From Leisingera sp. ANG59 (GTDB lineage Bacteria > Pseudomonadota > Alphaproteobacteria > Rhodobacterales > Rhodobacteraceae), in the NCBI RefSeq assembly GCF_013317235.1, contig NZ_WLCM01000007.1, positions 71,501 to 135,500 of the forward strand: a stretch of DNA of 64,000 nucleotides, written 5' to 3'. Positions 63,099-64,000 of the stretch are shown piece after piece; the stretch's first letter is position 1, and each line of letters starts with the position of its first letter. The position numbers and the translations under genes are program-made. The notes under the pieces were generated by a model. The model did not search any database. It had not been told where the DNA came from and was given only the letters and a program-made list of their open reading frames with translations.

Positions 63099-63741
63099 AT
63101 GACGGCGGAACTGATGCTTTGGGCGGGGGCCGGGGGCTGTGCATTGATTTACCTTTTCCTTGCGGCGCAGCCGCCCGGACTGCTGCGCAGTGTGCTGAAG
63201 ACAGCATCAGTCGCTTTGCTGGCGGTGGCGGCGCTGCTGGCGGACGCGCCCTTGCTGCTGGCCCTGGCGCTGGCCCTGTGCGCGCTGGGCGATCTGTTCC
63301 TGTCGCGAGACGGCGAGGCGGCGTTCATGGCGGGCGTCGGTGCCTTTGCCGCCGGGCATCTGGCCTATGCGGTGCTGTTCCTGACGCGGGAGGCGAGCGA
63401 CGCGGCGCGGCTGCTGCAGATGCCCGGCGCGGCCTTCGCGGCAGGTCTGCTGGTGCTGGGGCTGATGATGGCGAAAATCCTGGCGCCGCGCGCCGGGGCG
63501 CTGAAGGGGGCTGTGCTGGGGTACATCCCGATCATCCTTGGCATGGGGGCGGCGGCGCTGACGCTGCCGTTTGGTTCGTGGGTCTTTGCCGCTGCCTGCG
63601 CCTTCATGCTGTCGGATATGGTGCTGGCGGCGGAAACCTTTGTGCTGCCGGAGGATCATGCGCTGCGCCGGATCACGCCATATACGGTCTGGCCGCTCTA
63701 TTGGGGGGGCGCAAGCGGGCTTTGTGGCGGCATTTTCCTGA
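63099..63741 (+). pseudogene. Lysoplasmalogenase (YhhN family) interrupted by a G7 frameshift
   Basis: From ATG 63099 the frame is a clear YhhN membrane protein (LALCALGDLFLSRDGEAAFM; AFMLSDMVLAAETFVLPE; PYTVWPLYW), with about eight membrane segments. At G7 (63703-63709) the expected ending YWGAQAGFVAAF and its stop (63739-63741) lie in the next frame, as if one G had been added to G6. Read as given, the frame has no stop and runs on into ftsY. Intact, it would hydrolyse the vinyl-ether bond of lysoplasmalogens; 213-214 residues if restored. Confidence 0.8.
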
Positions 63742-63818
63742 TTTCTGCGGCGCGTTGCGCTTTGCACTCCGCCGAAATCCGCATTAGGTGGGGTGCAGAC
63801 CCTTTTGCGGAGACCAAG

Positions 63819-64000
63819 ATGGCGTTTTTCTCAAAGCTCAAGGAGCGGCTGTTCAAATCCTCCTCCAAGCTCGAGCAGGGGCTCGATGCGATTGTCGAGG
63901 AGGGCGCGGAGAGCGGTGCGGCGGAGGCTGCGGAGACTCAAGCTGAGGCCCATGTCGAGGCGCTGGCGGAGTCCCCGGCGGTAACGCCTGAGCAGCCTGC
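63819..64000 (+). CDS. ftsY: FtsY, signal recognition particle receptor (partial)
   Basis: The first 60 codons are visible: MAFFSKLKERLFKSSSKLEQ, then GLDAIVEEGAESGAAEAAE and an acidic Ala/Glu-rich stretch, the usual FtsY N-terminal membrane-targeting region. The GTPase part lies beyond the window. It is 77 bases after the restored lysoplasmalogenase stop and in the same frame as the unbroken upstream sequence. Confidence 0.85.
   Translation, partial: MAFFSKLKERLFKSSSKLEQGLDAIVEEGAESGAAEAAETQAEAHVEALAESPAVTPEQP

Follow-up and report, generated by a model that had tools for sequence, protein, structure and literature searches.

The yhhN-ftsY locus and its joined reading frame

The window, a 64,000-nucleotide stretch of Leisingera sp. 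ANG59 (contig C76, positions 71501-135500, from a draft assembly of 108 contigs and 5.33 Mb), ends within a plus-strand pair of genes, yhhN and ftsY. The part of yhhN that retains the ancestral frame (63099-63702) encodes a lysoplasmalogenase-like membrane protein with 72.6-90.1% protein identity to its counterparts in 17 other Leisingera species. The YhhN domain (PF07947) is recognised on 63099-63701 with E 8e-29 and 104.2 bits, well above the curated cut-off of 25.6, and its profile is covered from position 2 to 178 of 182. This part is followed by a run of seven G residues (63703-63709). In relatives the last residues of YhhN are encoded by the bases aligned with 63710-63738, which in the window are read one frame off, and the TGA aligned with 63739-63741, here out of frame, closes the gene. 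Comparison with relatives delimits a spacer of 77 bases (63742-63818), in which the shifted frame contains no stop codon. The start of ftsY occupies the remaining positions 63819-64000.

The frame opened by the yhhN ATG at 63099 is not interrupted up to the end of the window. Beyond it, the frame continues through ftsY to a stop codon at C76:136507-136509, approximately 1 kb past the window end. The joined frame has 636 codons when begun at this ATG, or 673 when begun at the first GTG (62988), and Pfam finds in it YhhN (PF07947), SRP54_N (PF02881) and the SRP54 GTPase (PF00448). Thus the open yhhN frame running into ftsY through a G7 tract, described in an earlier note on this DNA, is confirmed, and the position given there for the ancestral yhhN stop is borne out by the alignment.

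The ftsY gene itself is complete. From its ATG at 63819 it encodes a protein of 396 amino acids with both FtsY domains, SRP54_N (E 2.1e-9) and the SRP54 GTPase (E 3e-72; Pfam matches in L032:1320-2507), and it has matches in relatives. The ATG is preceded, at a distance of 6 bases, by GGAG (63809-63812), a Shine-Dalgarno-like motif and putative ribosome-binding site. Both the motif and the ATG are present in all 18 aligned Leisingera sequences, and translation of FtsY is therefore expected to begin at its own start as before. Two blocks of the spacer (approximately 63755-63770 and 63779-63790) are conserved in these 18 sequences, with small differences and at an unchanged distance, as an ftsY promoter might be. 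A consensus scan of 63600-63900 yielded no promoter of the sigma-70 type.

The tract and the spacer in relatives

Twenty other Leisingera were considered, and 17 of them have a yhhN match in the fetched ftsY locus (the exceptions are G005, G008 and G020). In these 17 species the tract consists of six G residues in 13 cases and of four in 4 cases. Among 70 further loci there are 22 tracts of G6, 43 of G4 and 5 of G2 or G3, and none of G7; ten Leisingera loci repeating genomes already counted were omitted from this alignment. The comparison of tract length in close relatives, proposed in the earlier note, therefore sets the window apart from all of them, and a long or variable G tract is not kept at this site in either set.

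In all 17 Leisingera species yhhN ends before ftsY, with the ending YWGAQ..F..FS followed by a stop codon. Of 102 loci from relatives in which YhhN was matched, or 91 when the ten repeated Leisingera loci and one other repeat are removed, none reads through into ftsY; the frame stops 182-216 codons past the start of the match. In a sample of 295 genomes of the family, YhhN was found in 85, with 87 matches including that of the window. Only two other stop-to-stop frames around YhhN in this sample exceed 480 amino acids (633 and 609). None of the five longest among the 86 other frames (633, 609, 477, 454 and 419 amino acids) is fused to FtsY, the two genes being in different frames or separated by stop codons. 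Relatives with an intact in-frame fusion, which the earlier note had named as grounds for abandoning its explanation, are thus absent among the loci and family genomes examined. A conserved, evolved YhhN-FtsY fusion was rejected, as no examined relative reads through. As far as these sequence searches extend, the inserted base and the fused frame are private to this genome record.

The entry of the shifted frame into ftsY is a consequence of the spacer length. Between the ancestral yhhN stop and the ftsY ATG the window has 77 bases, as do 15 of the 17 other Leisingera species, and the remaining two have 78 and 87; with 77 bases, a shift of +1 falls in the register of ftsY. When the same shift was read in the 17 relatives, six would yield a fusion and the other 11 would meet a stop codon or come out of register. 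This comparison gives no sign that selection keeps the shifted frame open, and with six relatives that would fuse as well, the fused frame is incidental.

The likely course of events is therefore short. A tract of six G residues near the 3' end of yhhN would have expanded by a single base, in this genome record only; the frame would then be carried past the yhhN stop, and the 77-base spacer would make it, by chance, the frame of ftsY. The fused frame would have no selected role. We hold it very likely that a one-base expansion private to this record, with an accidental fused frame, is all that distinguishes the locus, and that it is an ordinary event. Homopolymer frameshifts of this sort are a known kind of event in draft and natural genomes. 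Like them, the window shows a G run altered by one base in one genome only; unlike them, it has a shifted frame that by chance leads into the neighbouring gene.

Consequences for YhhN and FtsY

The YhhN residues up to YWG are retained, whereas the C-terminal end after YWG differs in the window. A C-terminal Y...Q motif occurs in 91 of 91 relatives; the open frame of the window keeps its tyrosine and loses its glutamine. This motif is a conservation found in the present analysis and no published criterion. A lysine, two aspartates, a histidine and a tyrosine resembling, by eye, the proposed active-site set listed in PMC11994398 all precede the G tract. According to the same paper, mutants of the proposed active-site residues of human TMEM86 are mostly inactive. 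For YhhN of M. tuberculosis, PMC9052158 gives eight predicted helices, a cytoplasmic C-terminus and a tyrosine among the putative active-site residues, and the tyrosine before the G tract may correspond to the latter. Compared with the YhhN/TMEM86 lysoplasmalogenases, the window protein thus has the recognised domain and active-site-like residues, but has another end after YWG and lacks the glutamine. The frameshift probably reduces or abolishes YhhN activity.

Loss of yhhN seems to be tolerated in the genus. In 3 of the 20 other Leisingera, no YhhN match was observed beside ftsY in the approximately 1.5 kb fetched (G005, G008 and G020; loci L024, L023 and L021), and G008 has no match genome-wide. 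A frameshift in yhhN would then be tolerable as well.

The signs of an older decay of yhhN are mixed. In alignment column 199, close before the tract, the residue A is replaced by T in the window, and the 17 other sequences agree there. The ratio of amino-acid to silent changes is 11:23 on the window yhhN branch versus 8:30 in two sisters (P 0.30); other outgroups give 12:16 versus 6:21 (P 0.15) and 10:11 versus 4:18 (P 0.055). The ftsY of the same genome has 2:51, from which its yhhN differs clearly (P 0.0004), whereas the yhhN and ftsY of the two sisters, with 8:30 and 11:47, show no difference (P 0.80). However, the pairwise dN/dS of the window yhhN, 0.217, is only the fifth highest of 12 Leisingera (range 0.169-0.225); that of ftsY is 0.045 (range 0.045-0.067). 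Thus the change counts lean toward an older loss and dN/dS does not, and the case is not convincing. The bases past the tract still spell the ancestral yhhN ending nearly unchanged, with the TGA in place, and hence the change is either recent or an error.

As for FtsY, its own ATG and its ribosome-binding site would still serve for translation and leave the cell with the normal protein. Set beside the bacterial SRP receptor, the window gene agrees in its full-length product with both domains; it is unlike it in that the frame extends into yhhN on the upstream side. The product that begins at the ftsY ATG is unchanged. In practice the locus matters mainly for annotation: automatic gene calling will produce a YhhN-FtsY protein of 636-673 amino acids and hide the normal ftsY start. 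That start should be set at 63819, with yhhN marked as frameshifted.

Origin of the seventh G

Homopolymer runs were surveyed in regions of 180-200 kb from the genome of the window and three relatives. Among comparable in-gene runs of at least five bases, one of 171 changes the frame in the window genome, namely the G7; the counts for the three relatives are 0 of 157, 1 of 139 and 1 of 143. (These 171 were kept from 196 runs; those outside genes, within 150 bases of the gene 5' end, in the last 6 bases, or not alignable in two relatives were omitted.) For runs of at least six bases in called genes, the G7 is again the only one to change the frame among 24 comparable runs, and the relatives have one flagged run each out of 21, 21 and 17. 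The contig is therefore not prone to homopolymer frame changes, and a generally error-prone assembly was rejected. The background of about one event per region fits one error and one natural slip alike.

Two other tests were less informative. An earlier frame test, which took in all mechanically called ORFs, marked 20 of 172 places in the window genome and 12-21 in the relatives, but it was swamped by shadow ORFs and missed the G7, whose position is too close to the end of the gene. When 141 orthologue groups were aligned one gene at a time, the outcome was four rows private to the window genome and ten mixed rows, some with changes there, mostly noise from over-long start calls. The private rows comprise the G7, two changes near gene starts, and one gene with both +2 and +1.

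The earlier note offered either an assembly error or a real frameshift, and this alternative stands, since the extra base is private and no examined relative has a fusion; a general proneness to homopolymer errors is not supported, and a single error at this site is possible. Slippage of the tract in vivo, also raised in the earlier note, gains no backing from the comparison, in which no examined relative retains a G7 at this position. That the true tract of the strain is G6, with one base added in assembly, falls just short of an even chance in our estimate. The difference occurs in one genome only and in a homopolymer, the ancestral ending and stop are still there, dN/dS of yhhN gives no indication of relaxed constraint, and the draft, besides its 108 contigs, has two solitary N bases (C76:3236 and 9500, outside the window but on its contig), where base calls are unresolved. 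Against an artefact is the run census, in which the G7 stands alone. To a recent slippage mutation that damaged yhhN, with FtsY made from its own start and any fusion protein a by-product, we would give an even chance. A run of six G residues is an ordinary target of slippage, and the contig is otherwise clean; the substitution in the otherwise invariant column close before the tract and the lean of the change counts point the same way, as does the absence of yhhN beside ftsY in three other Leisingera. The unexceptional dN/dS of yhhN speaks against it. Overall, a recent natural slip during replication and one assembly error are about equally likely, with the slip slightly favoured in view of the otherwise clean contig.

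A functional YhhN-FtsY fusion, or a switch operated by tract length, tethering FtsY to the membrane, seems very improbable. Read in the shifted frame, residues 204-222 are still a hydrophobic segment (mean hydropathy 1.46), after which come charged residues and a linker encoded by the spacer. The C-terminus of the M. tuberculosis protein is predicted to be cytoplasmic (PMC9052158); a fusion would keep FtsY on the cytosolic side, anchored to the membrane, and FtsY tethered in this way reportedly functions in vivo (PMC2780400, citing Zelazny 1997). On the other hand, neither the G7 nor the fused frame occurs in the examined relatives, four Leisingera have only G4, and an identical slip would produce no fusion in 11 of 17. 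We found no literature joining FtsY, fusion and lysoplasmalogenase. The strongest form of the idea, by which the G7 is real and YhhN-FtsY is made beside free FtsY as a permanently membrane-anchored SRP receptor, with slippage in the tract setting their ratio, is more improbable still. Were the fusion protein in fact produced, nature would offer an example of an SRP receptor held by a membrane protein unrelated to it.

In one other locus (L178, positions 1928-1930; G154:C23, minus strand), yhhN and ftsY are in the same frame with a stop codon between them, and loss of this stop would join the frames too.
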